A stretch of DNA of 64,000 nucleotides from Fusarium oxysporum f. sp. lycopersici 4287 (Eukaryota; Ascomycota; Sordariomycetes; Hypocreales; Nectriaceae): assembly GCF_000149955.1 (NCBI RefSeq), contig NC_030991.1, forward strand, positions 2,663,571 to 2,727,570, read 5' to 3'. A program made the translations under genes and the position numbers. A model generated the notes under the pieces. That model was given only the letters and a program-made list of their open reading frames with translations. It searched no databases and was not told where the DNA came from. Shown here in pieces: positions 2,319 to 32,293 of the stretch; position 1 is the stretch's first letter, and every line of letters starts with the position of its first letter.

Positions 2319-4165
2319 ACGTGTTTGATAAGCATGCGCCGCAGACAAGTATGCGCCGCACTTTTCCCTCTTACATCATACATTTTACCTGATCAATTAG
2401 TTTTCAACCATTTATCATGTCACAATCTTCAATTGAAGCTAAAACCCTTCTTGCTCTTCAGGCCCTTCAGAATAATCCAAAATTAAGTGTCCGACGCGCT
2501 GCAAAGATGTATGAGATTGATGAGCGCCGCCTACGTCGCCGCCAGCAAGGCATTCAATCACGACGCGATTGGATTCCAAAGTCACGGAAACTATCTGATC
2601 TGGAAGAGCAGATAATAGTCCAATTCATTCTTGATCTAGATTCGCGAGGATTTCCCTCGCGATTACGTTTTGTGGAAGAAATGGCTAATTCTCTGCTTGC
2701 TGACCGCGATGCGTCACCTGTCGGCAAGCGCTGGGCTCATAACTTTGTAAAGCGACAACCAGAGCTCAAGACGCGTTTATTTCGGAAATATGACTACCAG
2801 AGAGCTAAATGCGAAGATCCATCGATTATTCGTAGCTAGTTTAGGCTCGTACAGGACACAATCGCAAAGTATGGTATCCGATCAGATGATATCTGGAACT
2901 TTGATGAGACTGGCTTTATGATGGGCATTATTATGGCCGGAATGGTCGTCACCGGTTCAGAAAGGCAAGGCAGACCAAAATCAGCGCAGCCTGGAAACCG
3001 GGAATGGATTACTGTAATCCAGCCGATTAATGCAGAAGGTCAATCGATCGCACCGTTTATCATTGGTGCAGGCCAATATCACCTTACGAATTGGTACCGA
3101 GAATGCGACCTCCCGGGCGATTGGGTTATCGCAACGAGCCAAAATGGATGGACAAATAACCAGCTAGGCCTTGAGTGGCTAAAGCACTTTGACCGATGTA
3201 CAGCCAATCTATCAGTTGGTTCCTATCGTCTTCTGATCCTTGATGGTCACGAAAGTCACCACTCGACCGACTTTGAGATATATTGTGAGGAGCATAATAT
3301 TATTACGCTTTGTATGCCGCCTCATTCATCTCATCTACTTCAGCCTCTTGACATCGGGTGCTTTGGGCCGCTGAAAAAGGCATATGGTCGAGAAATTGAG
3401 CATCTAATCAGAAGCTCTATAACTCACATTTCGAAGACCGAGTTCTTCCCGGCCTTTTATGCCGCTTTTCAGGCTACTATGACCGAGAAGAATATTAAGG
3501 GAGGTTTTAAGGGAGCTGGCCTTGTCCCTTTTGATCCAGAAAGTGTAGTCTCAAAGCTTCATGTGCAGCTACGGACTCCAACACCTGCTGAGGAGGAAGC
3601 AGGCCAGGCACAACCTTGGACTTCAAAGACCCCGAAGACAATTATTGAGGCTGAATTGCAGTCTGAATACCTTGAAAGACGAGTTAGAAGGCATCAAAGC
3701 AGCTCTCCAGAGTCAATTTTAGAAGCACTAAAGTCTCTTTCAAAAGGAACGAAGGCAGTTATGCATGAGATGGTTTTAATGAGGGCTGAGATTCAAGATC
3801 TTCGACAGGCGAATGAGATACTTAGCCGACGGCGCAGAGAAAAAAGAACCCGCCTACAGAATAGAGGGAAGATGGCAGTAGAGGAAGGTCGGGATTTAAC
3901 TGATCAGATAGATATAGATATGCAGGTAGTGGCCGAATTGTCGAAAAGTGGTGGTCAGGGAAGGTCGATGCGACCGGGGGTTCGGCGCTGTGGGAGATGC
4001 GGCAAGGCCGGGCATAATGCAAGGACCTGTCAAGAGGGTATTGAGGCCTCTGCAGAAGAGTATAGCAATTAGAATTAAACGATTAGATACTTTATTGTGT
4101 TTTTATTGAGATTTTTATTTTTAAGATGAAGACTTTTGTAACACTCGCTTATCTGTAACACCCTG
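2319..4165 (+). mobile_element. Pogo-like element 2 with mismatched ends
   Basis: The left end follows TA at 2317-2318 and starts ACGTGTTTGATAAG, with boxes CATGCGCCGCA and TATGCGCCGCA spaced 17 bp apart. The right side, after the transposase, carries GTAACACTCGCTTATC (about 4138) followed by a partial second copy and then unrelated sequence. That right motif belongs to the family of the lone end at 9099, not to the left end. The right end is truncated near 4165, so the boundary is approximate. Confidence 0.5.
2417..4072 (+). pseudogene. Pogo-like transposase with C-terminal zinc knuckle, one nonsense codon
   Basis: A 551-residue frame is interrupted only by TAG at 2837-2839. Homology across the stop (FRLVQDTIAKYG follows) suggests TGG to TAG, a G to A change in a CpA context on the opposite strand, consistent with RIP. 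The N-terminus has a psq-like helix-turn-helix (SVRRAAKMYEIDERRLRRR) followed by a CENP-B-type domain. The DDE_1 catalytic core shows NFDETGF, LLILDGHESHHS and LLQPLDIGCFG. Residues near the end form a CCHC knuckle, CGRCGKAGHNARTC, preceded by a probable coiled coil. C-terminal CCHC knuckles are found on some fungal pogo-like transposases and may add nucleic-acid binding. It is not translatable as one chain unless read through. Confidence 0.85.
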
Positions 4166-4258
4166 TCGCAGGCCGGGCATGGTCTCAATGATCCTCAGGA
4201 ACAACAGCCCTTAGTAATCAAGCTGGGTGATTTAAAGTAAAACCTGTGGGATGGAATA

Positions 4259-5125
4259 ACGTACATGATAAGCGAGTGTCTCAGACAAGCGAGTGTCTCA
4301 CTATACTGTGTTACCTAAATACAGCTTACCCTACAGCACTTTTTTAGCTAAAATAAAATAATAGAAAATATTAAAAGTTATAGTTTTAAGTAGTACAGCT
4401 TTTAAAACTAAAATATTATTTTTTAGATTTTCTTTAGCATTATATTATCTAAAAAACCTGTTAAAATACAGTATAAATAGATTTTCTTTAATAACTCTAC
4501 GAATAATTTAGCTATAATTCTTTTATGAAGTAACGTGTTTGATAAGTGAGTGGGTCAGACAAGTAAGTGAGTCACTGCACTGTATAGTATTAAAAAACCT
4601 ACCCTATAGTATTTTTTTATTCTAAATAAAATAGATAAAAATTTAAAAAAAATATTTTTAAGAATAGTATAGTTAACCTTATTATAAAATATTTTTTTAA
4701 GACTTTTAGCTATTTTATTTTATATAGTAAAGCTTAATTATACAGTATAAAATACAGTATAAATAGGTTTTAAGGTTTATAGCTATATAGAATTTTTCTA
4801 AAAGTCTTAAAAAATTTATATAATATATTTTAAGACTTATATATAGGCTACTAAAATTACAGCCAATTTAGGCTTAGTTTGAATTTTTAAAGAATTTTTT
4901 AAACCCCGGATTTAAGGTGGAAATAAGATTGACTCACTCACTTGGATGACCCACTCACTTATCAAACACGTTATATAGCTTTCTTATACAGTTAAAAATA
5001 AGTTACAAAGCTTTTAGCTTTTTGGGCGTAGCCTGAATTCTATATAAGCTTTTAAAAGCCAGCTTTTTAGGTGTAAAGTGAGGTGAGACACTCGCTTGTC
5101 TGAGACACTCGCTCATCATGTACGT
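4259..5125. mobile_element. Outer pogo-type MITE (867 bp), host of a nested MITE
   Basis: Terminal inverted repeats of about 44 bp flanked by TA (4257-4258, 5126-5127). Each end reads ACGTACATGATAAG (with one variation at the right), then two identical boxes CGAGTGTCTCA spaced 17 bp. The interior is extremely AT-rich and non-coding. A second MITE sits inside at 4533-4971. Subtracting that insert leaves about 430 bp, so the two elements were originally of similar size. Confidence 0.85.
4533..4971. mobile_element. Inner pogo-type MITE (439 bp)
   Basis: Flanked by TA (4531-4532, 4972-4973). The ends read ACGTGTTTGATAAG plus boxes TGAGTGGGTCA and TAAGTGAGTCA at 17-bp period; the right end is the inverted counterpart. 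Just inside the left end, the run CTGCACTGTATAGTATT and an AAACCTACCCTATAG segment resemble the corresponding inner sequence of the outer MITE (CTATACTGTGTTACC, CAGCTTACCCTACAG). The two MITEs are therefore relatives with different terminal boxes. Non-coding, AT-rich. Confidence 0.85.
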
Positions 5126-5127
5126 TA

Positions 5128-5927
5128 CCCCACACAGAAGATAGAACCAATCAACTCACTACTGCTGCTCATTCTGAATGACCCGACCTTCAATCCATTT
5201 TAAGCACATCCAGTGCGACAATTAGTCTCGTAGCTACTTGCGAAGGATGGTCCCCCACCGAGATTCCTCACAGAGGCAAGTGACTGGGATGTTGCGCTTG
5301 ATATGAATTATACCTTATGAACTCTCATCTGAAATTGATCGAAGGTTAGCATTCGAACGGGTTTCCGAGGCTCTAGGTTATGATATGATGGACACCACCA
5401 TTACTTACCATTCGTAGCGTTAGCATCACGCCACAACGGGACGCAACATGATGTGACGAGTCACTCCCATTCAGCCATTTTAGACGCCACAGATGTTTAT
5501 GTGAGTAAATCCTATTGATCCAATTCGCTGAATACCCGGGTTGAACAATTTAACACGATTTGCTCTTATGACTGACATATGACAGCTCTGAATGCGATGA
5601 AAAAGGCAGCATCTACACGACAAGGATCAGGTGCGTATCTTCTGGCGGGGATTAACAAACTTCGGGCAGATTCAATTGAGTTTGAGGGCGCCACCTTTAT
5701 CGCATGACCAATGAAGACATGTCGAGACAGCCCCGCAGCGTCGTTCATTTGGCTACTATGACGATACGCGTTCTCTGATTTCAAAATGCACATCAGACAA
5801 TATGGATATATTTTCACGTCGTCCCTTCAGTCGCTTCGAGCGCTCTTGGGTCATTAAACCTGACTTATTCATTAAACAACCATCTTCTCTGCTTAAATAC
5901 CTGATATCTACTTGAAAGTTCTTCATC
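5128..5927. other. Intergenic, no gene seen
   Basis: Base composition returns to normal right after the outer MITE. Short frames here (for example 5566-5817 minus) have no recognisable domain, start context or splice logic. No repeat structure stood out. Confidence 0.5.
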
Positions 5928-6533
5928 ATGTCGAACAGTTCCGAACTCCTCTACCATGTCATCCTAACAGTCATCGACTTCCATCTAGACTCTTCGGGGG
6001 CCAAACGATCCATCTACATTCTCGGCACACGTACGACACTCGACTCCGCCAAAGACTCGGCTTTCAGGGTCCTCCATACGCTGAGATACGAACCGGAGGA
6101 CTTCATCGAGTACGCCGTACATTCAAGTCACACTAAAGACTGGGCTTATGGCAATGGAGTTCTGGTCTACGCTAAGGCCCCTGCAGGTCAGGTATTCCAG
6201 ATCTCTATCCAGGCTACACCCAACACTGAACAGCTTCTGGGAGACAGCGATGGATCTATCATGTTACCCCAAGGAATACCTTCGCTTTACTACGTGACGC
6301 AGACCGTCATCGACTACAATAAAGATCGAACTGGCTGCGTGCAGGAGATGCAAATAGAGGGGACTTTTGTTCACCGGGCTGATGCAAACAATGCAGCGCG
6401 TAAGCTGCTTGATCCTCTTGAATTATGCAGAGTACGACACGGCGTGTACAAGATGAAAGGGGAATGGCCATATGGGGATGAACGTGGTTGCTCCATGCAG
6501 TCGCAGAGACTGGCGGAGAACACGGACTGTTGA
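5928..6533 (+). CDS. Hypothetical protein with internally duplicated domain
   Basis: A single-exon frame of 201 residues beginning MSNSSELLYHVILTVIDF. I do not recognise the family. Residues about 8-50 (LYHVILTVIDFHLDSSG ... DSAKDSAFRVL) and about 119-162 (LYYVTQTVIDYNKDRTG ... DANNAARKLL) align as two diverged copies, each ending in an alanine-rich helix. The second unit looks shortened: the first is followed by a YGNGVLVYAKAPAG segment, while the second ends soon after HGVYKMKGEWPYG. No signal peptide or membrane segment is seen. It stands alone between the pogo cluster and a secreted-protein gene, and its coding frame is intact, unlike most neighbours. Small cytosolic proteins with this look are common among lineage-specific fungal genes, but no function can be assigned. 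Confidence 0.65.
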   Translation: MSNSSELLYHVILTVIDFHLDSSGAKRSIYILGTRTTLDSAKDSAFRVLHTLRYEPEDFIEYAVHSSHTKDWAYGNGVLVYAKAPAGQVFQISIQATPNTEQLLGDSDGSIMLPQGIPSLYYVTQTVIDYNKDRTGCVQEMQIEGTFVHRADANNAARKLLDPLELCRVRHGVYKMKGEWPYGDERGCSMQSQRLAENTDC

Positions 6534-7032
6534 AAGTAAAAGACTGTTGTTGAATACACATTACAAATACGAGAAGGTTGGTCTAAACGGACTCTTTTGG
6601 TGATTATGGAGTTGGTTTTAACCGATGGGGAATGTACATCTTCTTTTCCTGGAGGCTTGCAAATTTTGGTTGAGGAATTTGTATCATTAGTTGTTTGAGG
6701 CTTGCCAACTTGGGGATTCAACTTATTAGCATCTTTTTTTTTACTCAGATACTAGGCTATTAATGGGTATATCTTTCACTGCATATACTAGACATTACAA
6801 TCCAGGGCATTGTTATGTGATAAAGCAAAAGTAAAGATACATTAAAGAACGAGCCTATGTACAAAGAGCTGGCACTATGTCCACATTGTCGCCAGCAAAG
6901 GAGTGATATCAAGATGCACTAATCAGCGCCCTCGTATACCGCAATGAGTAAGCACTAAGAGTTGGGTAAAGAACAGAATCAACAAAAGAAGTAGAAAACG
7001 ACGTTTCCCAACGACGCGGCAATGCAGCCCAA

Positions 7033-7319
7033 TCAAAAATGGAAGCCAGGGGGCACACAATACGGCGAGCCGTTCTGCTTGTTAAACAGGCAACCCGTCT
7101 TCGGGGGACAGACACCGGCGAACTAGAGACCGGATAAGCTTTTCCTGTCATCCGCCGCCATGGAACGGAGATACTTACTACCCAGGTGCGGTCGACATTG
7201 CAGACCTGCCAGCCCTTGAGGTCTGGCGTGCACGAGTAGGTTCCAGGCGTACAGCCTTTAGGAGCTGGGGTAGCAGCTGTGATGGCAGCCATAGTGGTGA
7301 GAAGAGGGATAACCTTCAT
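7033..7319 (-). CDS. Small secreted cysteine-rich protein (76 aa, two exons)
   Basis: Exon 1 is 7179-7319 and exon 2 is 7033-7122, joined across a 56-bp GTAAGT...CTAG intron. The product is 76 residues. It starts with a signal peptide (MKVIPLLTTMAAITAATPA) and has a mature part of about 57 residues with six cysteines: KGCTPGTYSC, WQVCNV, GVCPPKTGCLF and PYCVPPG. Six cysteines allow three disulfides. Secretion, small size and even cysteine number fit an apoplastic effector or defence-type protein; this is inference. Reading through the intron instead gives a long arginine-rich tail that makes no sense, which supports the splice. A TATAAAA box lies about 100 bp upstream. The gene sits in a transposon-rich block, a common setting for fungal effectors. 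Confidence 0.75.
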
Positions 7320-7420
7320 GATGACAATGGTGTTGATGTGTGATGATTGATTGAATCTTATGATAGCGAGCGGATGCTATTGATAATGATCAAGTCAGCG
7401 CATGGCTGCTTGAGATGGCA

Positions 7421-7427
7421 TTTTATA
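7421..7427 (-). promoter_or_regulatory. TATA-box for the secreted cysteine-rich gene
   Basis: TATAAAA on the minus strand, about 100 bp upstream of the start codon at 7319. Position and sequence fit a core promoter; no transcript data are available. Confidence 0.4.
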
Positions 7428-7987
7428 CTTGACTGGAGTGCTTCCAATCTCCAGATCTCGTACTACAACTGCATTGCCTCCTCTAACTTATATTTAGAAT
7501 AGAGGTCAGTTTGGGTCATTGTGCAGGCCATTACGAACTAACTCGTCGCATGTGAAGTGATCCACTTATGCGCCAAAGATAAGCTTACACCGGCGTCGTT
7601 AGATTGATTGGGCCATTTGACTATTGGAAGACCGGAATATAATGTTCCGATACGAGAAGCTCAAGGTGACCGTGCAATGGTGCATCAGTCAGATCAGGGA
7701 CCTCGGTTAGTACTACAACCGCATATAACCGCCAGTGAAGGCATTCTTAAAATACCTTTCTAACCCCATTAACAAGCACGGAACGAACTATGATCTGATT
7801 TTATCGTGGCTTCGTGCAGATAATCGTATTACAACTGTCATAACACCTCGCTTATCGTGTAACCCTCCCTTGCTACTCTGACAGCCACCAATATCAGACG
7901 CCAGAACACAATCAGAACACCGCAAACTCTAATCACGCCGCAAGTCATAAACTCATCTCTTGAACTTTATAAGACACGGCACATTTT
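7428..7987. other. Intergenic, no gene seen
   Basis: Probable divergent promoter space between the secreted protein gene (minus) and the dehydrogenase-like gene (plus). No convincing coding or repeat signal. Confidence 0.45.
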
Positions 7988-9068
7988 ATGCACGATGGGA
8001 GATCAATCCCTCGAGTTATTTAACCGCACACAAAGGGCTCAGCATCTCAAGTAGCGATTGTAGGTGTCGGAGAAGTCGGCAGTGCCGTCGCTTATAACCT
8101 TGCACTGAATTCTATCGCCAGCGAGTCGCTTCTCGTTGATCTCGATCTCAATCTGAGAAATGCTCAGATCGAAGACCTCTCCGATGTCATCTACAGTACT
8201 AACAACAGTACACGTGTACGCCCAGCCACGTATCGTGAGGCCGCTCAGAGCGACCTCGTGGTCATAACCGCTGCATCTAAACACACGTTAGGTAAGCGTC
8301 CAAGTACTTGCTTTTGCTACAGGCTTATGGTTCTTTCAAGGTAAGGCAACGGTTGACTATATGTCTCGGAACACTTCGATGATACGTGAGGTGATGGAGG
8401 CGATGAAACCTTTCCGACCTGACACGGTTTTGCTGGTTGTGGTAAATCCTGCTGACTTGCTATCATCCATCGCCAAAGACATGTCGGGACTTCCTCCGTC
8501 TCAGGTCATCGGCACCGGTACTACTCTCGGCACTTACAGACTTCGTGGGATGATTGCATCTCGTACCTTGGTGAGTACCCGCGACTCTATCAGACATCTC
8601 AATCTCTCTAATACAGCACCATTATAGGTATCACCGTCTGCTGTAGATGCATTCGTCGTGGGTCGTCACGGGGACGACCAAGTAGTCACCTGGTCTTCAG
8701 CAAGCATTGGCGCGGTCCCTATTGCTGACGTACAAATGTTCAATGCTCTTGATCGCAATAGAATTGAACTAATCTGCAAGCATCGATTGCAAAGTATCAT
8801 ACGGGGTAAAGGCTCTGCGCCGTTTGAGATTGCTTCAGTCGCTGCTAATTTGTGCTGTTCTGTTATCTTAGACAAGCATGAGGTATACCCCGTTAGTCAC
8901 TTTCAAGAGCAGTATGAATGTTGTCTCATCATGCCTGCTGTTATTGGAAGAAAGGGAATTCTGAGTTCAGTTCCGTTATCTTTGGATGCTGGGGAAGAGG
9001 TTGCGGTAAAGGCGTTGGGAAAACTAGTGAAAGAAAGTGTTGAGTCGATCCAACGAGACTGGTGGTGA
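7988..9068 (+). pseudogene. L-lactate dehydrogenase family gene, probably decayed
   Basis: Exons 7988-8291, 8341-8570 and 8628-9068 join in frame (325 codons) across 49- and 57-bp introns. Visible family features are the Rossmann loop GVGEVGSAVAYNL, LLVDLD for the NAD ribose, NPADLL, GTGTTLGTYRLR with the substrate arginine, and the catalytic histidine in GRHGDD. Two defects are seen. The only in-frame ATG upstream (7988) is separated from the Rossmann fold by TAA at 8021-8023, which could be CAA before a C to T change. In the mobile loop, AASKHTLGKATVDYMSRN replaces the family pattern, so both the specificity glutamine and the carbonyl-polarising arginine appear to be threonine. Either the gene is dead, or the start lies in an exon I cannot see and the enzyme has changed chemistry. 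Malate dehydrogenase is excluded less firmly. Confidence 0.6.
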
Positions 9069-9098
9069 TGACGTTTCCTATTCACAGTGTTTTAAGTA

Positions 9099-9139
9099 AC
9101 GTACGTGATAAGCGAGTGTTACAAACAAGCGAGTGTTAC
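9099..9139 (+). repeat. Lone pogo-type terminal repeat
   Basis: After TA (9097-9098), ACGTACGTGATAAG is followed by CGAGTGTTACA, AACAAG and CGAGTGTTAC: two identical boxes at 17-bp period. It is cut off exactly where the copia LTR starts (9140). No partner end is found beyond the copia element's other side. Confidence 0.75.
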
Positions 9140-9289
9140 TGTCAAACATTACGTGTATTCGGTTCATTGATGTGAATTGGTGTATTCATCTTGTGTTCTG
9201 TTGAAATCTGCCCCTTGAAGGGTTCGCCATTTTGGCGCGTAATCTTAAGCATCCCTGCTTGCACGTGATACTCCAGCACTTGTTTAACA
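9140..9289 (-). repeat. Copia 3' LTR
   Basis: 150 bp with TG...CA ends, matching 15515-15664 with many substitutions. The polypurine tract lies directly inside at 9290-9300. Confidence 0.85.
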
Positions 9290-9376
9290 CACCCCCCCAG
9301 ATTGAACCTTGGGGCTCAGTCTGTATAGTCCGTTTGCTATCGTCAGGTTGGCCATCCGTCCATTCCCTTCATAGGC

Positions 9377-10033: not shown

Positions 10034-10248
10034 GTTGAATCGACAAAGTCGAGAAACGGCAAAGGCAATATCGGGTCAAGTGATTACTGCCAGGTAGAGC
10101 ACTGATCCGGTCTTGCGTTGATACTGCTGTATTGACACTGTTGATGCGCGCTCTTCGTTCGGAAGAAGTTCTTTCGTGGTCATTGGAGTGAGGGAAGGCT
10201 TTCCCCTTGAATCCTGAAATGACTAGTGATCTTATCCACGAATGACAA

Positions 10249-11763
10249 TTACGACAGCCAAATCAGACGTTGGTTTCGGTCGCGAATAATCTCAATTCCA
10301 AGAAACCACTGTAGCATATCTCCTCCAGAGAGTTGGTACTTTTCTCGAAGCTTGCCTATCGTCCATTCGACCGATCTTTGATTGGTCTTCTCGTAGGCAA
10401 CAATAAGGTCGTCCACATAGAAGAATATCAATATTCCTCCTTTCGAGAGACAGCATGGCTCGTGAGGTACAGACTTGAACCCAATGTTCGTAAGGGTGGT
10501 GGTTAGTTCCTTTTGCCAAAGTAATGGTGACTGGCGCAAGCCGTATAGTGCTTTCTGAAGTTTGAGGATCAGGCCAGGCTTCCGGTAGCCTCCGGGCATC
10601 CGCATATAGACGTCCTGTTTCAGTTCAGCATTGACAAAGGCGTTGACGACATCATACTGGAGAAGTTCTAAATCAAAGCGAGCAGCTATAGCCATGAGTG
10701 TTCGGAAAGATCTGCCGGCAAGTGTGGATGCATAGGTATCCTCGTGTGTCGACTTGGCCTGTTGATCGCCTCGCACAACGAGCCGGGCCTTGCACTTGGT
10801 GAACCATCCGTGCTTGTCGAACTTGTACACATAAACCCACATGCAGTCCAGGAGTTCCTTACCTGCGGCTTCTTCTCTCTGAACCTCACGCCAGGAGCGC
10901 ATTTCTTTATGGCTTTCAAGATGAGTCTTTTCTGCCTCGCGGAATAGGTCACCTAGTGGATGGTTCTTGAGGTCTTTATGCCTTTTTGGCAATATTGGCA
11001 TGTCTCGCCGGTGTATCCGGCGTTGGCCGTCACCTAAATCTGTCAGCTTTGCAGACTGTGTTTTGCAGTTGGGAGAATCCATCAGCTTAGTAGATTCCCC
11101 ATGGCTTCCCGTAGACTGAGGTTCTCCGCTATCAGGGTGGCAGCTGGCCGAGCTCGCCTGCTTCTCGAACTTCCGCTTACTCACCACGTTGCCATTCCAG
11201 GTCCCTTTCACAGATGCAAGTCGACCGGCATTAAATGCGGCCTCCCAGTAACTGCTCGGAGTTGAAATGACACGAGAGGCTCCATTTGCGCCGTCTCGTC
11301 CCGGGGAAGTGCCAGCGCTAGGTGGGACATGCACCATCTTGGCAGCTCGTAACTGAGGGGGGTTCCCCCCCTCCTTCCTCACGGGAGGTTCTCTGATAGT
11401 AGCGACCAGAAGGGCAGCAGGCCGTAGAGGGCAAGTCTCCGGGGTCAGGTAGGGAGTGAATCGAGCGGTCGTGTAGGGGTGATCAGTCCCGTCAGGCTCT
11501 TCTCGATTACGATCTCCTACGACTAGTGTCCTGCCAGTCTCACCCTGCGTAATCGTGGGATCACGTTCAAACCCTCTATGTGGATAACTTGCAGCCTCCC
11601 GCTCAAACGCTAGTCCTTCAGGCAAGGCGCTTAATTCCTCGTCTTCTTCTTGGGTAGAAGCATCCAGATTGATGCTAGATCCCTGTAGGACCTCAGCATC
11701 AGTGAGATGCTGAATAAGTTCTTCCTGGTTTAGTTCTTTTAAATCATCCTTGAGGTGTTGCAC
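10249..11763 (-). pseudogene. Copia reverse transcriptase segment
   Basis: The 504-residue frame covers the spacer after integrase and the RVT_2 reverse transcriptase. Landmarks are CMWVYVYKFDKHGWFTKCKARLVVRG, LLQYDVVNAFVNAEL, YGLRQSPLLWQKEL and the catalytic FFYVDDLIV (YVDD). It joins the integrase tail after a one-base frame change near 11760 (the reading shifts from DVIFN to FSGDVQHLKDDL). An in-frame TAA follows at its end. The catalytic aspartates are present but the polyprotein cannot be made. Confidence 0.85.
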
Positions 11764-11945
11764 ATCCCCAGAGAACGTTGAAGATCACGTCTCTAGTGGA
11801 GATGGCCTTGTTGGTCAACGGATTCCAGACCCTGTAGATGTTTGTTGAGTTATACCCGACCAGGTATCCTATCCACCCTCGGGGATTGAGTCGTTGTCGC
11901 CGATTCTTCTTTTTCAAAGCATCGGTCGCCATCGCGAAGGCTTTA

Positions 11946-14172
11946 CCATCCAGGACCACCTAGTGGGCACCCCCACCTAATGGACCACCAAAATTTGAAT
12001 CTTCCCATACAAACTCCGAATTTTCAAGTACAACGCATTCAGCCAAGAACGTAGATACTCGCAAACCTATACCAATGTTGTATAGCAGTTTTCATGGAAT
12101 TTCCCTATCGGCTTGATTTTTCCCCGTTCCGCCTTGTGGCCTAGTTCTCTAGCACTTTGAATTCTTTCGCATTTCTCCTCATCTACCCCACGCGACTCCA
12201 TCCACTTGAGCCGAATTTACACCTAATTTTCTTGTCGGAACTCCTTTCGCAATGGTTCGCCGTGTTTATACCGAAGATGACGTAGCTGAGGCTATACTCG
12301 ATATTACTGATAGAGGCCTGTCACAGACGGGGGCGGCCCAGAAACGTGGAGTACCTCGGTCGACCCTTTCTGGGCGACTTTCCGGTCAAGCGAGCAGGAA
12401 TGAACGGATCCAGGCCCACCAGCGTATATCAAAGAGCCAGGAGGAGACACTCCTTCGTTGGGTGCTGCGACAAGAGTCTCTGGGCTATGCTCTATCGCAC
12501 AGCCAGCTCCGCGCCTGTGTCGAGGCCATCCTCAAACAACAAAGCAATAACAAGCCTCTGGGTAAGCACTGGACTACGAGACTCGTCAAACGTCACCTAG
12601 AACTATCTAACAAGCTTGGGAAACGTCAGGAAGCCGCCAGATTTGACGGATTTACTCCGAAGGCGGTCAATTGGTACTTCGATATCCGGGAGGATGAGTA
12701 CGGCTGGATCAAGCCTGAGAACACGGTTGACGTGGACGAGGGCGGTATAATGGTGGGTTTCGGTAAGTCTTCTACAAGTGCTCTATGGGTTTTTATAGGG
12801 CATAGCTAATTGATTGTCCATGAGGCCTGGACAGCCTCGTAATCGGGAACTCTGACCCGAAGAAGAAGGCGATGTTGAAAGGCGTTCAGTCGTGCACGTG
12901 GACCTCGTTTATTGAGGCTGTCACTGCAACTAGCCGCTCTTTAAAACCGGGAATTATCTTTAAAGGGAAAGAGCTGCAGAAACAGTGGTTTCTGAACGAA
13001 TTCGAATTAATAGCGGACTGGCACTACATCACATCCCCGAACGGCTGGACCGACAACCATATAGCTCTCGAATGGTTGAAAGACGTCTATCTACCTCAAA
13101 CGGAGCCTCGTGATGCATCGGATGCGAGACTTATTATCCTTGACGGCCACGGGAGCCATGCGCAGGTAAGCATTTCGGTGTTTTCGCCGCTGAGTCACCC
13201 GCTATAGGGTCGCTGACGAGCAGTCAGGACGAGTGGATGGCTACGTGCTTTCTGAACAACGTCTACTGCTGTTACTTACCAGCACATTGTTCCCATGGTC
13301 TGCAGCCATTAGATAATGGAATTTTTAATGTCATCAAAGGTGCATACCGGAAAGAACTCCAAAAGCTGGCTAGTTTGATCGATTCTGCGCCGGTTGACAA
13401 AGTCAACTTTATTCGGGCATACGCGAAAGCGAGGGAAGCGGGCATGAGGAAGAAGATTATCTTATCCGGCTGGAGGTTTACTGGAAATTGGCCAATAAAT
13501 CGTTACAAAGCTCTAGCACATCCAGAAATTCAACCGGACAAAGAAAAACTGCTGGAAGAGTTCAAGACGCCGAGCCCTCCTCAACTGCACTCAGATGATA
13601 CGCCGAAAACGAGCTGGCAAGTGAGGGAAATGGCCAAGCACCAAAGTCGTCCGACCAGGCAGAAGTACAGTAAGATTGCAAAGGGGCTGGAAGGTTTAGA
13701 GATGAAGGTTGCCGTTCAGAATGCGCGGATTACTGGCCTCGAGGAGCAGATGGCTCAGCTGCGGCGAGGGAAGAAAAGAAAGGCGGTACCGAACCCGAAC
13801 CGACGATTCATGGCTCTAGCGGAGTCTCTAGCGACTGGAGAAGCTCTTCCTGACTCAAAGGGGGCAGAAATAGAGGTAGATGTGGATGAGGAGGTCGAGT
13901 CGGTGATTGAGGTGGGTGTCAGGTTAGAGGACGAACGTGAGGACTCTACGGTCGTAACAAAGCACTGCCAGCGCACACGCAGCGGTCGGGAGGTCAAAAA
14001 ACCACGGAGAGAGTAAAATTCAAATAACTTTATAGAAACTCTCTTTAAAGCCTCGTTTATTAATTGAAAATCGGGCCTGTTTTTGCGGACATCAATATTT
14101 GGATTTTATATGGGAAGATTGAAATTTTGGTGGTCCATTAGGTGGGGGTGCCCACTAGGTGGTCCTGGATGG
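11946..14172 (+). mobile_element. Intact pogo-like transposon inside copia integrase
   Basis: 2227 bp flanked by TA (11944-11945, 14173-14174). Inverted repeats of at least 50 bp are almost identical. Each starts CCATCCAGGA and contains boxes CCACCTAGTGG and CCACCTAATGG at 17-bp period. Removing the element and one TA restores the copia reading frame without a scar: VYGC then KAFAMATDALKKKN. The outer limit is therefore at the CCATCC end, not at the inner CTAG repeat that also looks like a terminus. It contains one complete spliced transposase gene. Confidence 0.93.
12252..14016 (+). CDS. Pogo-like transposase, intact, three exons (546 aa)
   Basis: Exons 12252-12762, 12825-13165 and 13228-14016 splice to 547 codons with no interruption. 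Introns of 62 bp each have GT-AG ends, and the first has a GCTAAT branch motif. Domains: psq-type helix-turn-helix about residues 5-55 (DRGLSQTGAAQKRGVPRSTLSGRL), CENP-B-type helix-turn-helix about 65-135, then the DDE_1 catalytic domain. The acidic triad is D162 (VDVDEGG), D277 (LIILDGHGSH) and D313 (LQPLDNG), with 35 residues between the last two as in DD35D enzymes. The tail has a short coiled coil (about 420-450) and a basic GKKRKAVPNPNRR segment. Expected role: binding the element's own ends in the nucleus and cutting at TA. The same exon structure recurs in the dead sister at 30395-32137, which confirms the splice sites. Confidence 0.93.
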
Positions 14173-14992
14173 TACAACCATATACGCGTAGGTGTCTCTG
14201 ATCGGGCTTACGCTCCGTGACAACCACGCCGTCCCTAAAGGCAAAGTAAGTATAGAAACGCTCATATGGCGTCTTCCAATTGTAGATATACTTGGGTGTC
14301 CTATTGTATAGGTACACGGCAGCGCGCCAGATCTCAACCCAAAGGAACGAAGGCAGCTTTGCTCCAGCTCTCATCGCGCGAGCTTTCTCCTTGATCACAC
14401 CCCCCGAGCGCTCTGCGCCGCCATTTTGACTTTGGGCATATGGCGCGGAGGGCTCTAGGCGCATCCCGTTTTTGATACTGAGGAAGTCACTTACCTGGTG
14501 ACTATCCGGGATCTCGTTATCACACTCGATGACTTCGGGCCTACACTGGAGTTGTCGCTCTAGTGTTCTGAGTAGATGCTCAAGTGCACCAATAAGCGTT
14601 GGTGCAGTTCGATCGGGAAGATAATAGTCCCAGATATAGCCAGAGTAACGGTCGGTGACCAGCATAGCTGAAGTGTAGCCTGGATCCCCACTCATGTCGT
14701 GGAAATCAATAGCGAGTCGGATTCCAGCCTTCTCGGGTGGAACTCGTATTTGTCGACGGACTTGGCGCTTCACCTTCGCCATTCCACAAGCATCGCACTC
14801 AACCGTGGAGATCTCTCTGATCTTCACCCCCCGACATTGGCCCACGAGGTGCTTGAGTGCTTCGGCCATGGTCGTCTCCCACTCCGTGACCCATTCGTTG
14901 AGTTTGTTGATCTTCGGGGCTGCATGTACGGCTTTGTGGTACTTGTCGCGCGCTTCGGGTCGAAGGCGTTCGTTGTATACCACTCCAGATCT

Positions 14993-15442: not shown

Positions 15443-15514
15443 GGTGATAGAATGAACCGAAGGTCGTATGCATTTGGGTGCGCGGGTCGCTGAGATGCAA
15501 TTGAGACTCTTAAT

Positions 15515-18568: not shown

Positions 18569-18574
18569 AGCGTT

Positions 18575-19670: not shown

Positions 19671-19680
19671 TAGCCTAGGA

Positions 19681-20558: not shown

Positions 20559-20559
20559 T

Positions 20560-21805: not shown

Positions 21806-21810
21806 TGCTG

Positions 21811-24387: not shown

Positions 24388-24519
24388 ATTTTTTTTTTTT
24401 TATGAAACTTAGTTGTTCATTATTAAGATGAGAGTTCTTCTCAGGTTTATATCTCTAAATGATTTCATCTAGGACTTTAAACTTTAAATCTAGGACTTTC
24501 AGACTGTTAGTCTGAATCC

Positions 24520-25371: not shown

Positions 25372-28300
25372 ATATTCTCAAACACGAAAGAACGACAGGA
25401 AGCCGTTCAGGATCTTCCAGGCCAACGTCGGCAAGATCCCTCCGGCCCACGACTGCGCCCTGGCGCTGGCCGACTCGGAACAATATGACGTTGTGCTCTT
25501 GCAAGAGCCGTGGACGGCTCACACAGAGACCCGCACTTTAACTAAGACTCACCCTGCATACGACACATTTACGCCGGTCGACATGTGGAACAGCAATGAT
25601 ACTCGGCCTAGAGTCATGACATATGTCCGGCGAGACCCCAGACTTCTGGCTGACCAGATTCGACCCTTCCAGACTCGCGATATCCTTTGGCTCACGATCA
25701 ACGGCATGACTGTAGTCAACGTCTATCGCCAGAACGACGAGAAAGACGCCCTGAACACGCTGCTTCGGTAGTCGGTCCCGGAACGCTGCTTTGTTGCTGG
25801 CGATTTCAATGCTAGACATCGTAGCTGGCAGACAGGCCAAGCTACGAATCGGGGCCAAGAGATAGCAGGATGGGCATCGGAGAATGACCTCGACCTTCTC
25901 AACACCCTATATATCCCGACAAACCCATACGGCAACACAATCGATCTTGCGTTTACGAACCTGCCACTTGCTGAAGCTACCGTCGAGGACCATCTCGCCA
26001 CTAGCTCTGACCACTTCACCCTCAGCTTGACCTTCCCTGACCTCAGGCCGGCCCCGATACAGCTGGGCAAGATTCGAGTGACGACGGAAGATGAGCTCAA
26101 ACGATTTGTCGAGATCGTAGAGCTCGGAGCCACAGAAATCCCCCTGAGAGATTCGACCCCTGCGGAGCTGGACGAGCTTGCGTCTTCACTTGTAACTCTA
26201 TTGACATCAGCAGCGAAGGCAGCTGGCCGGCCCGCGCGGAAAGGCGGACGCCCAGCTCCCTGGTGGACAGAGGAGTGCGCCGACGCCGCGGCTGCTTTTC
26301 GAGCCATCAGAAGAAGCTACCCATGCGGCTTCAACCAGGACGTTCAGATCGCCAAAAGAGGCTTTCATCGTGTGCTCCGTCGGGCCAAGAGGCGCTATTG
26401 GCGTAACCTCATCGATGGCTTCTCCAGCAGTAGCGACGTTTTCAAAGCTGTCCGGTGGCTAAAGTCCCCAGAAGCTTTCCAGCCGCCACCTCTACAGGTC
26501 GATAACGTCGTGTATGAAACCCAGATGGGTAAAGCCAACGCACTCCGACAGGCCACGCTTGAACGAAGAACTGTGGAGGACGACATCGCAAACGCATGGA
26601 CGCCAGTATTCCCACCTAGATCGATCCCATTTTCTCCCGGAATCTCTCTGGAGGAGGCGCAATATGCGACTTGTCACACAGGCAATACATCCCCAGGGTC
26701 AGACAACATCACAGTCAAACTTCTTGAAGCAGTATGGCATGCCATCGGTACACACGTCCGTCGTCTCTTCGAAAGATGCCTTACCATAGGCCATCAGCCA
26801 AAACCATTCAAGGAGGCGGAGGTGGTCATGATCACGAAACCGGGACGGAGAGACCTTACCGAACCACGAGCATGGCGACCCATCTCACTGCTCTCCTGTC
26901 TTGGTAAAGGACTAGAACGACTGATCGCGCGCCGCCTAGCCTGGGCAGCCGTTCACTACAGCGTCCTTCATCCGCAGCAAGCTGGGGCGCTCCCCAAGAG
27001 GTCGGCAACAGACTTGGTAACTGCTCTGGTCCATGATATTGAAGAAGCGTTCGCACGCAAGAAGGTGGCGACTATAGTCACAATGGACGTCCAAGGTGCT
27101 TTCGACACCGTCATGCGCAACAGGCTCATCCTGCGTCTTCGTGAGCAAGGCTGGCCTAATCATCTGGCTCGCTGGGCCGGCTCCTTCATGGGCGGCCGGT
27201 CGGCGCGTGTCAGGTACCAAGACACAGTCACGCTCTCTTCTCCCCTTCAGTGCGGCCTCCCTCAGGGGTCGCCGGTATCGCCAATCCTCTTTCTGCTCTA
27301 CACTGAGCCAATCTATCGATTAGGGAACCCTCAGGGTCGCTTCGGCTATGCAGACGACACGGCCATCCTGTCCATAGGCGACACAGTAGACGAGACTTCT
27401 GCCATGGCATCTAGATCTATCGCCGAGATGGTGCGATGGGGCGCGGAGAATGGCGTGTCCTTCGACACGAAGAAGACCGAAGTCATGCATTTCTCCCGCA
27501 GCAAACTCAGGACTGCGCCGGCAGTACGCCACGGCGATGTCGAGAAATACCCTGAACCAGCTCTACGCTGGCTTGGTATCTGGTTGGATAGCAGACTATC
27601 TTTTCGACTTCATGTCGAAAAGTGGGCGGCGAAAGCAAAGGCAGTGGCTTATCATCTGCGGGGGCTCACCAACACGGTACACGGCCCTCTACCGAGCGCC
27701 GTGCGAGGCGCCGTCAGAGCATGTGCCGAGCCAGTGCTGCTCCACGGCTCCGAGGCGTGGTACCCGGGCAAGACCAGGCCGCGGTGGACCCATCCTACGA
27801 AAGATCTACCATCGAGTAACCAGCATCTCGTGCAAATAATGACAAAAGCCATGAAACAGGCTATGAAGGCCATTCTTCCCGTCTGGAAGACGACACCCAT
27901 CACCGTCCTCCACAGAGAAAGCGGGATACCACCAGTCGATCAATTGCTTGACGCGAGGCGACTTAGGTTCTCTGCACGACTCAAATCGCTGGATGAGGCT
28001 CATCCTCTGGCGATCCGAACGCGCCCGCCCCGACAGCCTACTTACCACGACCTCATCAAACGAAGATATCAAATACAGGCAGAGAACAGCTTCAGGACGC
28101 GCCTTCGACGTGCAAACGAACTCTTTGCACCCTGCACGCGGCCGAAACTCGTCTACCGATGCTTCCATCAAGAACAGATGCCTCCACTGCAGACAGCGTC
28201 TAAAGAGAAATCGGCTGACGCCTTTTCCCGCTGGGTCGAGTCTCTCGACCCGCTCACCTTGGTCGTATACTCGGATGGCTCTCTTTCCTCAGAAGGGGCT

Positions 28301-29101
28301 GCCAGCTATGGCTTCACCATCCATGAAAACAATATCCCCATCTTTGACGGATCAGGTCGCCTCGGACCTGCTGAGGTTTTCGATGCTGAAGCTACCGGGG
28401 CTTTAGAGGGCCTGAAGGCTGCTCTAACCCTGCGAGAATTAGCAACACAGAATATATTCATCTGCCTAGATAACCTGGCAGCCGCCACGTGTCTACGAGG
28501 CACTCCTTCTGAATCCTCTCAAAACGTCTTTCTCGAGTTCCAAGCTCTGACGACATCGCATGGAGCCATCCAAGTTCGCTGGGTGCCAGGGCACTCCAAC
28601 ATCCCTGGCAACGAACAGGCCGACAAGCTGGCAAAGGCAGCATCATCGCTCCCCGAGCCCGAAGGCGCTCAGCCGACGCTGGCTTATCTACGAAGAATCG
28701 CAAGACAGAAACCGAAAGAAGCATTCGAGGCGTGGTGGTCCACCTCCGCTCCTGAGCAGTACAGGAGACTCAATCTCAAGGCGACTACAGGCTGTCCGCC
28801 GGAGCTGTTGCTCCCGCGTGCAGCGTTGCACCATCTGCTGGCAGCGAGGTCTCTCCACGGGGACTTCGCCGCATACCACGAAAGATTTGACCACGTCGAT
28901 GCACGTCTGGTCTGCTCATGTGGCCGACGCAAAGCACCGGATCACATCTTCTACTGCAGAAATGTACCGCCGCGTCATCGGATGAGGCTGGCACCCTCAC
29001 CGAATGCAGCAGTCAATCTAGCAATAGGAAAAGACTTCACCAAGTTCATCGACCTGTCCAAAGACAGCGCGTTCTTTGGAAAGACATGCCCTCGTCATTA
29101 G
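25358..29101 (+). pseudogene. LINE ORF2: endonuclease, reverse transcriptase, RNase H (one stop)
   Basis: A 1248-codon frame with a single TAG at 25769-25771 (CAG to TAG would explain it). The N-terminal APE-type endonuclease shows FQANVGKIP, VVLLQEPW, VNVYRQ, VAGDFNARH and SDHFTL. The reverse transcriptase shows WRPISLLSCLGKGLERL, QQAGALP, TMDVQGAFDTV, GLPQGSPVSPILF and the catalytic FGYADDTAI. A C-terminal RNase H begins VVYSDGSLSSEGAASYG and includes WVPGHSNIPGNEQADKLAK. It ends with a cysteine/histidine motif (CSCGRRKAPDHIFYC). The part after the stop (from 26027) is fully open for 1024 residues, so this copy decayed recently or only lightly. The domain order is that of Tad1-like elements. 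Confidence 0.9.
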
Positions 29102-29569
29102 GCGACGACGACCAGAGAAGCACTTGCGACTCTCTCTCCCTCTCTTTTCACATCTCTTTTGTACACATTTTCTTCCTTACTTTGTCTTTCTCTCACTTGT
29201 TCTCGACCAGATGTAAGGCGCTGACACGCCCTCCATCCGGCCGCGATTACTCGGAGTACTCGGAGGCAGCCCCGCGGCAACCGTGTCCAGAGGCTCACGA
29301 TCGCCTGGAAACAGGCTTACCTTGCGGCTTTCATCCATCAGCCGCGCTTGGCCATCCCGCTGACGGGTAGCAAGCTTGATAAGATGCGCCATTTTGTGCC
29401 GTTGATATGCTGGATAGAGCGCAGTTTGATGACACGTTTGCTGAAATTGGATTTAGAGAAGGAAACTAATTTCGCGTTGCGAATGACCAATTCTTTATAG
29501 CCAGTAGCATGTCTGTAATTAGCGTGTAGACAGACTCTGATACCCCTAGCCCAGCACGTCCTGTGCCCC

Positions 29570-29640
29570 AATAGGGGACTTTCGGGGCCTACGGCCCCCC
29601 GGACGAAAAATATACATAACATAACATAACATAACATAAG
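29570..29640 (+). repeat. Hairpins plus (ATAAC)n tail, probable LINE 3' terminus
   Basis: CCCCAATAGGGG and GGGGCCTACGGCCCC form two short perfect hairpins. They are followed at 29614-29640 by about five copies of ATAAC/CATAA. Structured 3' ends with short tandem tails are common for LINEs and may mark the end of the LINE above or of another copy. Confidence 0.45.
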
Positions 29641-30102
29641 CATCAACGAAGGGAAAAGGGACCAGCTAGACTTTAAAGAATTGGCCCACTCAAGTATATC
29701 AACATTGAACTGGATCCGTTTCTGGTTTTGGCCCAATAGCAATCCAAAGCCTTCTACGCTTTTTTCAAGGTTTTGTGGCTGATATCTGATCTTTTGGTCA
29801 AACGCAAGTGAATCGATGTACTGTAACCAAGAACCCAATACTTTAGCCATGTGATATGATAATAGCCTGTTGGCCGAATGACTTCAAGTGCCGAAACATG
29901 TGGTGTTCTGGAACTTCCCACGCCCCGTTCATCGCATGTCCTGTCCGCAACATCCAGTTGTTGCGTAATACACCCACTAACTAAACCTGTGGCTTGAACT
30001 CTGGAAATTCTGAACAGCAGTTTGAGTTCGCACTTCAAGGCAGTCTAAGAGAACCTGCAGCCTCTAAGGCTATTCTTGTAGTTGTTAACACAGCGGGCAA
30101 AC
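29641..30102. other. Intergenic, no gene seen
   Basis: Unremarkable sequence between the LINE tail and the next pogo-like element. Confidence 0.4.
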
Positions 30103-30104
30103 TA

Positions 30105-32293
30105 CCATGCAGTACCCACCTGCCGGTCAGCGAAAAAAAAACAATTCCCCATACAAAATGTCAAACTTCACTTGCACAGTGCTTGGCCAAAATTGAAGTT
30201 ATTTACATGAAACAGATTGTGTCTTACTGAGAGTTTCATGCTGTTTCATATTGGCATATTCATTTGTATTTTACACAAGCAGTTTGGTCGCATGGCACTA
30301 AGGTAAAATTTCTCAAATGTCTCCTTCATCACCCAGCCTCCCCGAAATTTCTTCAAATTTTTATCTATAGCAGCTTCCTTTAATCGCCTTGAAATTGCCT
30401 CAACAGTCCTATACAGAGAATGATGTCATTGAAGCTATACTGGATGTTACAGATAATCTCCTCTCGCAGCACCAGGCCGCCCAGAAGCATGGAATGCCCC
30501 AAACCACTCTGTCTGACCGATTAAGAGGCCTACCGTCAAAGCCCGAGGTCACCCAACCTGCCTAGCTGTTATACAAATCCCAAGAGGCTAGATTAGTTAC
30601 ATGGATACTTCGACAAGAGGCCTTGGGCTATGCTCCTTCCCACAGTCAAGTTCGCGCCACCGTAGCTGCCCTGTTGAGATAGCAGGGCCGGGAAAGGCCT
30701 ATCGGTGTACACTGGCTAGCCAGGTTTATTAAACGCCATCCAGAGATCGATACGAAGGTAGGAAAACGCCAGGAAGCTGCAAGGTTCAATTCTTTTACCC
30801 CAATGGCCGTCAATTGGTACTTTAATATCCGGGAGAGCGAATATGGCTGGATCAAGCCTGAGAACACGGTTAAGGTTGACGAGGGCGGTACCATGGCTGG
30901 TTTTGGTAGGTATTGGTCACTCTTGCTACAAACCTCACTAATCCACTAAAAACCTAGGCTTGCATTGCTTGGTTATTGGCAGTAGCGATCCCAGGAGGAA
31001 GGCCTTCCTCAAGGGCTCGCAGTGCCGCACTTGGACTACCTTTATCGAAGCCGTCACCGCAGATGGCCGTCTTCTGAAGCCTGGGATTATCTTTAAAGGC
31101 AAAGAGCTTCAGCAGCAGTGGTTTATAGACGAGTTCAGAAAAGTCGCCGACTGGTATTATATCACGTCCGACAACGGCTGGACGGACAACCATATTGCAG
31201 TCGAGTGGCTCAAGGAGGTCTGTCTGCCTCAAACGCAACCAGCAGATGAGTCTGATGCAAGGCTCATCATATTAGATGGCCATGGAAGCCATGTATCTGT
31301 GGGTGCCTACCTGTTCTAGATCGGAAATATCGCTGACGGCGCTGACCCTAAATCCAGGATGAGTGGATGGCTACGTGTTTTTTGAACAACGTATATTGCT
31401 GTTACTTGCCTGCACACTGCTCTCATGGCCTGCAGCCACTGGACAATGGTGTCTTTAATGCCTCCTATGCTGCCTATCGAAAAGAGCTGCAGAAACTCAC
31501 CAGCCTGACCGATTCTGCGCCGGTGGACAAGGTCAATTTCATCAAGGCCTATGCCAGAGCCAGAGCAGTAGGTATGACGAAGAAAAACATCCTCTCAGGC
31601 TGGAGAGTGACGGGAAACTGGCCGATTTCACGACGGAAAGCGCTCCTGCATCCTGAGATTCAGTCGGACAAGAAAGAAACGACGCCTGGGTCACACGGCC
31701 ACAGAGACGGGCAAGTCGACTCTGATCATACGCCAACGACCAGCCGCCACATCCGAGATATGGGGAAGAACAAGAGCCCATCAACAAGAAGGCGCTATTC
31801 TGTGATATCGAGAGGGTTTGAAGCTCAAGAGTCAAAGATCGCCTCTCTCGACACTAGAATAGCTAGTCTGGAGGAGGAAGTTGGCCGGTTGAGCAGAGGC
31901 AAGAAGAGGAAGGCGATACCGAATCCTAACAAAAGGTTCATGACATTGGCCGAAGCTCTAGTGGCTGGTGACGCTATTTCTGAGCCAAACGAAGCAATTG
32001 AAAGGGCAGATGCTGTTGAGGATGTGATCAAGGTAGGAGGGATGGAAGAAGATGAGAGGTCAAATTCGGAGGAGGAAGAATTAACTGTGGTACGCACGCG
32101 GGCAGGGCGTGAAGTTAGAAAACCGCGAGAATACTAAAATCCACTTAATTCTAAAACGAAATACGAATATTATTTCACTCTTATTATTTTTGGTGGATTT
32201 CCTAAATCTGGTTGAAAAATTGCATTTTGTATGGGGAAATATTTCTTTTTCTTACCGGTTGGTGGGTATTACCGGTAGGTGGGTACTGCATGG
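30105..32293 (+). mobile_element. Pogo-like element 4, dead sister of the 11946 element
   Basis: TA flanks at 30103-30104 and 32294-32295. The ends read CCATGCAGTACCCACC and its complement. The right end carries boxes CCCACCTACCGG and CCCACCAACCGG at 17-bp period. The left end has lost the second box in a short deletion, so this copy has one complete and one defective terminus. The length (2189 bp) and coding layout match the intact element. Confidence 0.85.
30395..32137 (+). pseudogene. Pogo-like transposase, start lost and two nonsense codons
   Basis: Exons 30395-30905, 30958-31298 and 31358-32137 have the same first two exon lengths (511 and 341 nt) as the intact sister. The start codon position is TTG instead of ATG. 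TAG occurs at 30563-30565 and 30680-30682, both explicable as CAG to TAG. The catalytic motifs survive: VKVDEGG, LIILDGHGSH, LQPLDNG. The C-terminus again has a basic GKKRKAIPNPNKR segment. Exon colinearity with no indels in the DNA-binding and catalytic parts shows point-mutation death rather than erosion. Confidence 0.88.

Follow-up and report, generated by a model that had tools for sequence, protein, structure and literature searches.

Tandem 17-bp boxes at Fot5-like transposon ends of Fusarium oxysporum covary with the transposase DNA-binding region, suggesting a modular address system

Transposon ends and genes in the window

The window, a stretch of 64,000 nt from Fusarium oxysporum f. 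sp. lycopersici 4287, contains pogo-like elements and MITEs whose ends fall into two families, A and B (Table 1). Element A1 opens with the boxes CATGCGCCGCA/TATGCGCCGCA and carries a broken transposase gene, the first ORF of which contains an HTH_psq-like helix-turn-helix (HTH1) and an HTH_Tnp_Tc5 helix-turn-helix (HTH2). ORFs of the window match PF03221 (26.9 bits, cut-off 22.2) and PF03184 (107.4, cut-off 22), while for PF05225 the A1 score of 18.4 falls just below the cut-off of 20.4 and the family B score of 25.0 lies above it. Transposases with HTH_psq, HTH_Tnp_Tc5 and DDE_1 domains, as found here, are of the pogo/Fot1 type. Towards the C-terminal side of the A1 catalytic part, a CCHC-like motif was spotted by eye.

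The left and right addresses of A1 differ, and it therefore looks like a mosaic element. The ends at 4257 and 4973 could be paired as a single 717-bp MITE, but this assignment was rejected: 4257-5127 is an outer MITE that encloses an inner one at 4531-4973. The end at 9097 had been described in a sequence-only reading of this DNA as a perfect repeat; its second copy is CGAGTGTTACT, which is not identical to the first.

Table 1. Transposon ends, genes and elements located in the window
Feature	Position	Strand	Details
Left end of A1, address ATGCG-CCG	2317..2360	+	10-nt head TAACGTGTTT, then GATAAG
A1 left-end box 1	2333..2343	+
A1 left-end linker	2344..2349	+	GACAAG
A1 left-end box 2	2350..2360	+
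DNA-binding ORF of A1 transposase	2417..2839	+	140 aa, then in-frame stop 2837-2839
A1 codons 34-55	2516..2581	+	HTH1 recognition helix (model residues 36-43) plus the arm between the HTHs
Catalytic part (DDE_1) of the same broken gene	2918..4072	+
Right end of A1, TTA address	4137..4164	-	Head lost; compared with left ends of L079/L095
A1 right-end box 2	4137..4147	-
A1 right-end linker	4148..4153	-	GATAAG
A1 right-end box 1	4154..4164	-	Damaged
Outer MITE, left end, address GAGTG-TCT	4257..4300	+	Two identical copies
Inner MITE, left end, address GAGTG-GGT/AGT	4531..4574	+	Nested inside outer MITE
Inner MITE, right end	4930..4973	-	44/44 letters as in both ends of autonomous element L044
Outer MITE, right end, TCT	5084..5127	-	Two identical copies; GATGAG replaces GATAAG
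Solitary family A end, address GAGTG-TTA	9097..9140	+	Second copy ends in T
Family B element	11944..14174	+	Two-box end at 11944 (+), partner end at 14174 (-)
Family B-like element	30103..32295	+	Two-box end at 32295 (-); one recognisable box only at 30103 (+)

Architecture of the ends and agreement between box copies

A Fot5-like (pogo) end consists of a 10-nt head followed by two head-to-tail 17-bp units, each composed of GATAAG and an 11-letter box. Among database proteins, the one named "Fot5 transposase" by its source (P0116) was 72% identical along the entire 551 aa. The frame TGATAAG-N11-RACAAG was matched at 357 genomic sites and its reversed control at 2; because the assembly contains duplicated regions, these raw counts are inflated. 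The sequence-only reading was right that the copies start 17 bp apart in the ends at 2317, 4257, 4531, 9097 (+), 11944 (+) and 32295 (-), and the 17-bp autocorrelation that had been set beforehand as a test was recovered: across lags 5-30 in 110 unique family A ends, self-identity was highest at lag 17 (0.457), with 0.351 at lag 13 as the next best. The ACGT head follows a TA in 186 of the 188 two-box ends that have no more than one mismatch in the head, duplicate copies included.

The statement that all complete ends bear two boxes did not hold, as the two-box linker is present in only 87 of the 110 unique ends and a one-box end also occurs in elements with open ORFs. Among the other 23, L022 and L062 have two boxes separated by a mutated linker, two lack any box after the head, 13 have one box running directly into letters that resemble those after box 2 elsewhere, and six more are damaged or are one-box ends of other kinds. 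One-box ends are 17 bp shorter than two-box ends; L052 and L092, both with open 551-aa ORFs, have a one-box left end and a two-box right end. The family B copies also start 17 bp apart, with a box that measures 11 nt in the end at 11944 and 12 nt in that at 32295. The family B end pattern matched 561 times against 383 for its control, so that chance matches dominate, and at least three recognisable B ends occur among the first 32 of the 561.

Copies in one end resemble each other, as had been claimed. In 66 distinct box pairs, selected irrespective of agreement and with one chance match among them, the copies agreed on average at 10.0 of 11 letters, compared with 6.39 after permutation and 7.18 in the highest of 5000 shuffles. 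Positions b7, b8 and b9 agreed in 91, 95.5 and 95.5% of pairs versus 27, 30 and 33% when permuted. The b7-b9 triplet was identical between copies in 56 of the 66 pairs, which bears out the earlier proposal that specificity turns over in concert; removal of the chance match left 65 pairs with 21 distinct copy-1 triplets and the same 56 identities. The GGT family retains a fixed b7 difference between its copies, also in its MITE, and thus copies need not be identical.

Coupling of box letters to transposase residues

The residue-letter code was examined in family A. Elements were sampled at 30 loci and 60 further places, about one per score class up to the last six classes, and scores were obtained for 150 of the 637 transposase candidates. 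The code set retained 51 of 73 rows after removal of those with an unreadable left head or with gaps at over 8 of the first 118 columns, and of near-duplicates sharing residues 25-58 and b5-b9. Pairing the boxes with recognition-helix residues, as the sequence-only reading had suggested, gave a positive result: 16 residue-letter couplings passed the 99% family-wise threshold (n=51), and 15 of them fell in residues 34-55, which make up 19 of the 72 columns tested. The second HTH yielded zero couplings at this threshold in the same 72 columns (n=51). The earlier idea of paired HTHs needs amending: the variable letters go with the first HTH and the arm following it, and the second HTH is without association to them.

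The order of the couplings is partly collinear, with residues 55/52 coupled to b2-b3, 41 to b6, 37/35 to b7 and 36/37 to b8. Among these residues, which were selected from the same data that test them, R41 pairs with G at b6 in 43/43 cases, N41 with T in 3/3 and D41 or A41 with C in 3/3, while Y41 and C41 (one each) pair with G as R41 does; W/F52 pairs with T at b3 in 19/19 and N55 with G at b2 in 13/13. The 52-b3 rule is broken by three elements, namely L061 (mosaic), L065 (broken) and L088 (stop at codon 52). Not all of the couplings of residues 34 and 38 to b5, 34 and 40 to b9, 47 to b8, 49 to b3 and 6 to b7 agree with a simple collinear map.

For the left boxes, the Mantel correlation between helix and box distances was 0.44 (0/1000 shuffles as high), versus -0.01 for HTH2 (n=51). 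The nearest neighbour by helix predicted the triplet in 34/51 elements and that by HTH2 in 12/51; the code thus has gaps, as in 17/51 elements the triplet was missed when helix similarity was the sole guide. The measure relating residues 36-37 to b7b8 was 0.92 against a permuted mean of 0.70 and is inflated by 29 residue states. In a tree-based sign test, the 52-b3 coupling provided five independent pairs, of which a mean of 4.5 agreed and 0 opposed (p 0.06), and the other couplings among those listed provided two to four independent pairs. A predicted model identified helix 36-43 as the HTH1 recognition helix. Foldseek comparison returned CENP-B with DNA as the top match, and PDB sequence searches with the DNA-binding region and with a profile did not find CENP-B.

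Right ends, mosaics and cassette exchange

With a fixed element length, left and right ends agreed in 40 of 47 elements and disagreed in seven; L061, whose ends differ (AGC/GGC), counts as concordant by the threshold. At least 21 triplet changes are distributed over the 33 tips of a backbone tree, from which ORFs under 300 aa were dropped. In six independent pairs with close backbones and different addresses (24 ORFs, one pair including the unlike-ended L014), pN was 0.38 at 12 specificity codons, 0.098 at the other codons 1-58 and 0.028 in the backbone. Cassette pS averaged about 0.35 where backbone pS was below 0.3 in 33 different-address pairs, whereas both averaged 0.22 in 13 same-address pairs (30 ORFs, pairs not mutually independent); ORFs under 400 aa were dropped from both counts. 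From these comparisons, HTH1 looks to have been exchanged as a cassette.

Linkage, slippage and ancestry were each considered as the sole explanation and ranked as rivals. The left boxes and HTH1 share a stretch of about 270 bp and might co-travel in recombination, which would associate them without any recognition. Mere linkage would indeed place a matching HTH1 next to the left box in six of the seven unlike-ended elements, as found (e.g. L020, L066, L073, L079; the HTH1 of L065 fits neither end), and the cassette seems to have a separate history. Linkage is nevertheless improbable, since the right-end boxes, about 1.6 kb off and past a weakly associated backbone, also track the helix (r 0.32, 0/1000 shuffles; HTH2 0.00, n=47), albeit more weakly than the left ones. 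The couplings moreover concentrate in the recognition helix and the arm, with hardly any in the rest of the cassette, and pN/pS is 1.08 in the specificity codons versus 0.28 in neighbouring codons.

Neutral concerted evolution, with box 2 as a recent slippage duplicate of box 1, would produce agreement between copies without selection, and both the shorter one-box ends and the linkers that repeat the head (GATAAG..GATAAG; TATAAG..TATAAG) are in its favour. It leaves unexplained the agreement between the two ends of an element, the coupling of boxes to the protein and the b7 difference of the GGT family and its MITE, and we rate it slightly lower still; slippage may be a source of new copies, though not of the address. 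Shared ancestry of the whole end and transposase, visible in near-identical copies with everything in common (e.g. L023-L035), is already refuted as sole cause by sequence comparison, given that box distances show r of about 0 with HTH2 (n=51 and 47) and 0.10 with residues 151-380 (n=22 intact), that close backbones bear different addresses (L074/L092, L039/L043) and that YW at 36-37 pairs with CA at b7-b8 on different backbones.

Exchange seems to extend to the MITEs, as related MITE bodies carry 44-nt ends belonging to different autonomous families. M0, M2, M3 and the outer MITE of the window share 40-44 of the 44 letters with autonomous ends of the same address, and 5-14 of the 30 letters that follow. 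M1 has no good autonomous partner (36-38/44), and the autonomous ends best matching M4 bear a different triplet. The modular address code envisaged earlier stands insofar as families are set apart by address; the exchange unit, however, seems larger than a box, being the 44-nt end in MITEs and a left-end-plus-HTH1 cassette in autonomous copies.

A putative modular address system

We favour, at a probability of roughly four in five, a modular, combinatorial address system in 17-bp units that would be read by the transposase DNA-binding region, with cassette exchange. The units would be the sites at which the address is read: the HTH1 recognition helix (about residues 35-44) may contact b6-b9, and perhaps b5, in the 3' half of the box, the inter-HTH arm (52, 55) may contact b2-b3, and the near-invariant HTH2 probably grips the invariant GATAAG. 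A single enzyme would read the boxes at both ends, so that letters must match and copies covary. Addresses would change mainly when the left end and HTH1 are swapped as a cassette between elements, leaving an unlike-ended element, presumably of lost mobility, until the right end is replaced as well. MITEs would acquire new 44-nt ends and therefore become substrates of other transposases. Such matching could isolate families from one another.

The fuller version is advanced with distinctly less assurance, though it still seems more probable than not: one lineage would keep about twenty triplet addresses (some thirty with b5-b6) in one genome through an amino-acid-to-base code in helix and arm, families would split by cassette swap through unlike-ended mosaics, and MITEs would change masters via 44-nt labels. 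If true, the genome contains a library of HTH specificities that arose naturally and can be read from sequence, and transposon speciation would have a mechanism. The splitting of one lineage into non-interacting families and the assignment of MITEs to transposases are commonly judged in a loose way by how similar the TIRs are. In the present elements both seem legible in few residues and few bases, with many natural variants on one scaffold in one genome. Residue-to-base rules for this HTH type would become testable, MITEs could be assigned to likely transposases, and cassette exchange followed by end replacement would provide a concrete route to new families, the match between enzyme and label being readable from sequence and directly testable.

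Comparison with known systems

In the available excerpt of their description, Fot5/mFot5 of F. oxysporum, the same kind of element as here, include MITEs under 500 bp with Fot5-like TIRs; that excerpt terms the ends similar to Fot5 and mentions neither box variation nor address classes nor a residue link (PMC3599309). Two 17-bp direct repeats in such ends are already in print, as the excerpted study of the Fot1/pogo-type fungal transposons Trem, Aft1 and Tan1 describes TIRs of this form, suggests the repeats as sites for HTH and CENPB domains and reports transposases with HTH_psq, CENPB and DDE domains, as here (PMC2836289). It covers eight element types, and a covariation test, residue-letter coupling, one-box ends and end exchange are absent from the excerpt (PMC2836289). 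The ends described here likewise show two direct repeats with a 17-bp period, one-box exceptions aside, and the covariation of box letters with the transposase is apparently new. In the open-access literature, outside which most subscription papers lie, no paper on such a residue-to-box code was found. Fusarium pogo elements were reportedly studied genome-wide by Dufresne et al. in 2011.

CENP-B (17-bp box; PDB 1HLV) binds one fixed, non-repeated box, whereas the Fusarium sites occur in tandem, with letters that turn over. The HTH domain of the Drosophila pogo transposase is said to recognise a short 12-bp site inside the TIR (Wang et al. 1999); HTH recognition of a short TIR site is shared with the reading proposed here, but that work reportedly concerned one element and no family of alternative addresses. 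An analogy is offered by type I restriction specificity subunits and PRDM9, in which a conserved enzyme carries DNA-recognition modules that can be exchanged or evolve fast. In contrast to these, the targets in the Fusarium elements belong to the same mobile element as the putative reader, and up to four places would have to change together.

Build of family A ends

The genome around the window comprises 61.2 Mb in 71 contigs, and the closest protein relatives come from Fusarium, chiefly F. oxysporum, one of them bearing the name Fot5 transposase. Long regions are repeated in the assembly with identical transposon insertions at identical spacing (e.g. contigs C3, C6 and C70, or C15 and C71), so statistics are based on unique sequences unless stated otherwise. 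These stretches look as if they were duplicated accessory regions, or haplotypes kept apart in the assembly.

Family A ends consist of TA, ACGTnnn, T, GATAAG with an 11-letter box (b1-b11), and a second hexamer with its box; this gives a repeat unit of 17 bp and, for a two-unit end, a length of 10 + 17 + 17 = 44 nt, TA included. The second hexamer is mostly GACAAG, with GATAAG, TCCAAG, AACAAG and TATAAG also found, and family B has the 17-bp period in common. The sequence-only reading that every complete end carries two boxes spaced by 17 bp holds for the unit of two-box ends and fails as a general rule, since some family A ends have a single box directly followed by letters resembling those usually found after box 2, and three elements (L045, L052 and L092) combine a one-box left end with a two-box right end.

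Across family A boxes, b4, b10 and b11 are almost invariant, while the triplet letters b7-b9 are each near random between families (1.75-1.92 bits) and, in 91-95.5% of distinct pairs, identical in the two copies of one end. Less variation is seen at b2, b3, b5 and b6, which agree between copies too. The covariation of copy 1 with copy 2 proposed earlier was borne out, as triplets match in 28 of 33 cases (one pair per distinct b5-b9), against a mean of 1.9 under random pairing, with at most 9 in any of 10,000 shuffles. Family membership also tends to show in the three variable letters that follow ACGT, e.g. GCA with the CTC address (the variable box letters of an end), and the address may extend past the boxes into the ACGTnnn head.

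Transposase residues and box letters

Left boxes of 51 non-redundant elements were compared with the N-terminal part of their own transposases. Box distance tracks recognition-helix distance (r 0.44, 0/1000 shuffles as high), the pairing that the sequence-only reading had suggested, and this holds after allowing for the distance of the second helix-turn-helix (HTH2), which itself shows no association with box distance in these elements (r -0.01). When seven box positions were scanned for coupling with 72 variable columns (residues 5-120), 16 couplings passed the 99% family-wise limit, 15 of them in residues 34-55 and the other joining residue 6 to b7.

Residue 41 goes with b6: R with G (43/43), N with T (3/3) and D or A with C (3/3), Y and C (one element each) also having G. 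W or F at residue 52 goes with T at b3 (19/19), and b3 is not T in 29 of the 32 elements with neither; the three exceptions are a mosaic element (L061), a broken copy (L065) and a copy whose codon 52 is a stop (L088). N at residue 55 accompanies b2 G (13/13), and residues 36-37 pair with b7b8, for example YW-CA (5/5), RS-AG (4/4), YR-TC (4/5) and RN-GG (2/3). The order is in part collinear, with 55 and 52 matched to b2-b3, 41 to b6 and 35-37 to b7-b8, residues 34, 38, 40, 47 and 49 fitting more poorly; such an order would leave GATAAG to HTH2.

Left boxes and the first helix-turn-helix (HTH1) might be associated merely as close neighbours. However, right boxes track the helix too (r 0.32, 0/1000) and show no association with HTH2 (0.00) among 47 elements with both ends, so local linkage alone is no easy account; this is the strongest of the controls made. 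Common descent of end and transposase fares worse, because HTH2 does not predict the boxes, the catalytic part predicts them weakly (r 0.10, 22 intact elements), and a backbone tree of 33 elements, built without the first ~56 residues, requires at least 21 triplet changes. A tree-based test of residue 52 against b3, weak in numbers, gave five independent pairs, a mean of 4.5 agreeing and 0 opposed (p 0.06).

Turnover of addresses

Where two elements differ in address but have similar backbones (six independent pairs), pN is 0.38 and pS 0.35 (ratio 1.08) for twelve specificity codons; the other codons within residues 1-58 give 0.098 and 0.35, and the backbone 0.028 and 0.19. Since silent divergence is high across the whole cassette (left end plus HTH1), exchange of cassettes between elements is suggested, beyond mere point change in place. 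Same-address pairs had no excess silent divergence of the cassette (0.218 vs 0.216; 13 pairs, not independent).

Unlike ends occur in 7 of 47 elements, HTH1 pairing with the left end in six, and are read as intermediate stages of cassette exchange or as its dead ends; the window element A1 is probably a further case, judging from its end letters. L061 resembles one family in its left end and first residues and another in HTH1 and right end, which would place the break within the first HTH region; L053 looks mosaic with the opposite pairing of ends. Thirteen TCA-address copies (L023-L035) on several contigs have the same score against the query and may stem from a recent burst; the 551-aa frame is open in ten of them.

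MITEs and other elements in the window

Seven unique MITE-like sequences were collected from loci and window; one of 717 bp, a mis-pairing across the nested pair in the window, was rejected as a single MITE. The other six measure 432-455 bp. M0-M4 have bodies alike at ~69-81% identity, which M5 matches only partially. All six differ in boxes, M0 and M4 sharing the triplet TCC with different b2-b3. Over their outermost 44 letters they agree with the best autonomous end at 36-44 positions; identity then drops to 5-14/30 (23/30 at one M5 end), so labels are largely separable from bodies.

Best autonomous partners of MITE ends
MITE	Partner	Triplet	Identity
M0	L036	same	42-43/44
M1	no good partner		36-38/44
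M2	L014/L093	same	40-42/44
M3	L019/L044	same	42-44/44
M4	ends with another triplet	different	39-41/44
M5	right end of L090	same	42/44
Outer MITE of window	L081	same	43/44

Features of the window
Feature	Position	Strand
Relic of another pogo-type transposase	734-2274	+
DDE_1 frame of the relic, 406 aa	1054-2274	+
Relic upstream of this frame; by eye, looks like a broken N terminus		
A1 left end, CCG address	2317	+
A1 right end, damaged, TTA address	4137-4164	-
MITE split by a second MITE	4257-5127	
Second MITE, different address	4531-4973	
Family B element	11944-14174	
Long flanking frame; by eye, looks copia-type polyprotein	11744-11959	-
Long flanking frame; by eye, looks copia-type polyprotein	14138-14983	-

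With frames resembling parts of a copia-type polyprotein on both sides, the family B element seems to lie inside a retrotransposon.

Comparison with known systems

The architecture of the ends is already known: earlier reports describe the TIRs of Trem, Aft1 and Tan1 as holding a pair of 17-bp direct repeats, already proposed as sites for HTH and CENPB domains (PMC2836289), and, for Fot5, numerous intact ORFs alongside mFot5 MITEs whose TIRs resemble those of Fot5 (PMC3599309). For Sclerotinia elements, a further report finds no direct repeats and supposes that each end/transposase pair confers some specificity (PMC4188875); box variation is not mentioned in the sections seen of PMC7325037, and no description of a residue-to-letter code was found in the open-access literature searched. 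What appears new here is the covariation of boxes with the transposase in family A, the separable 44-nt labels and the exchange of cassettes.
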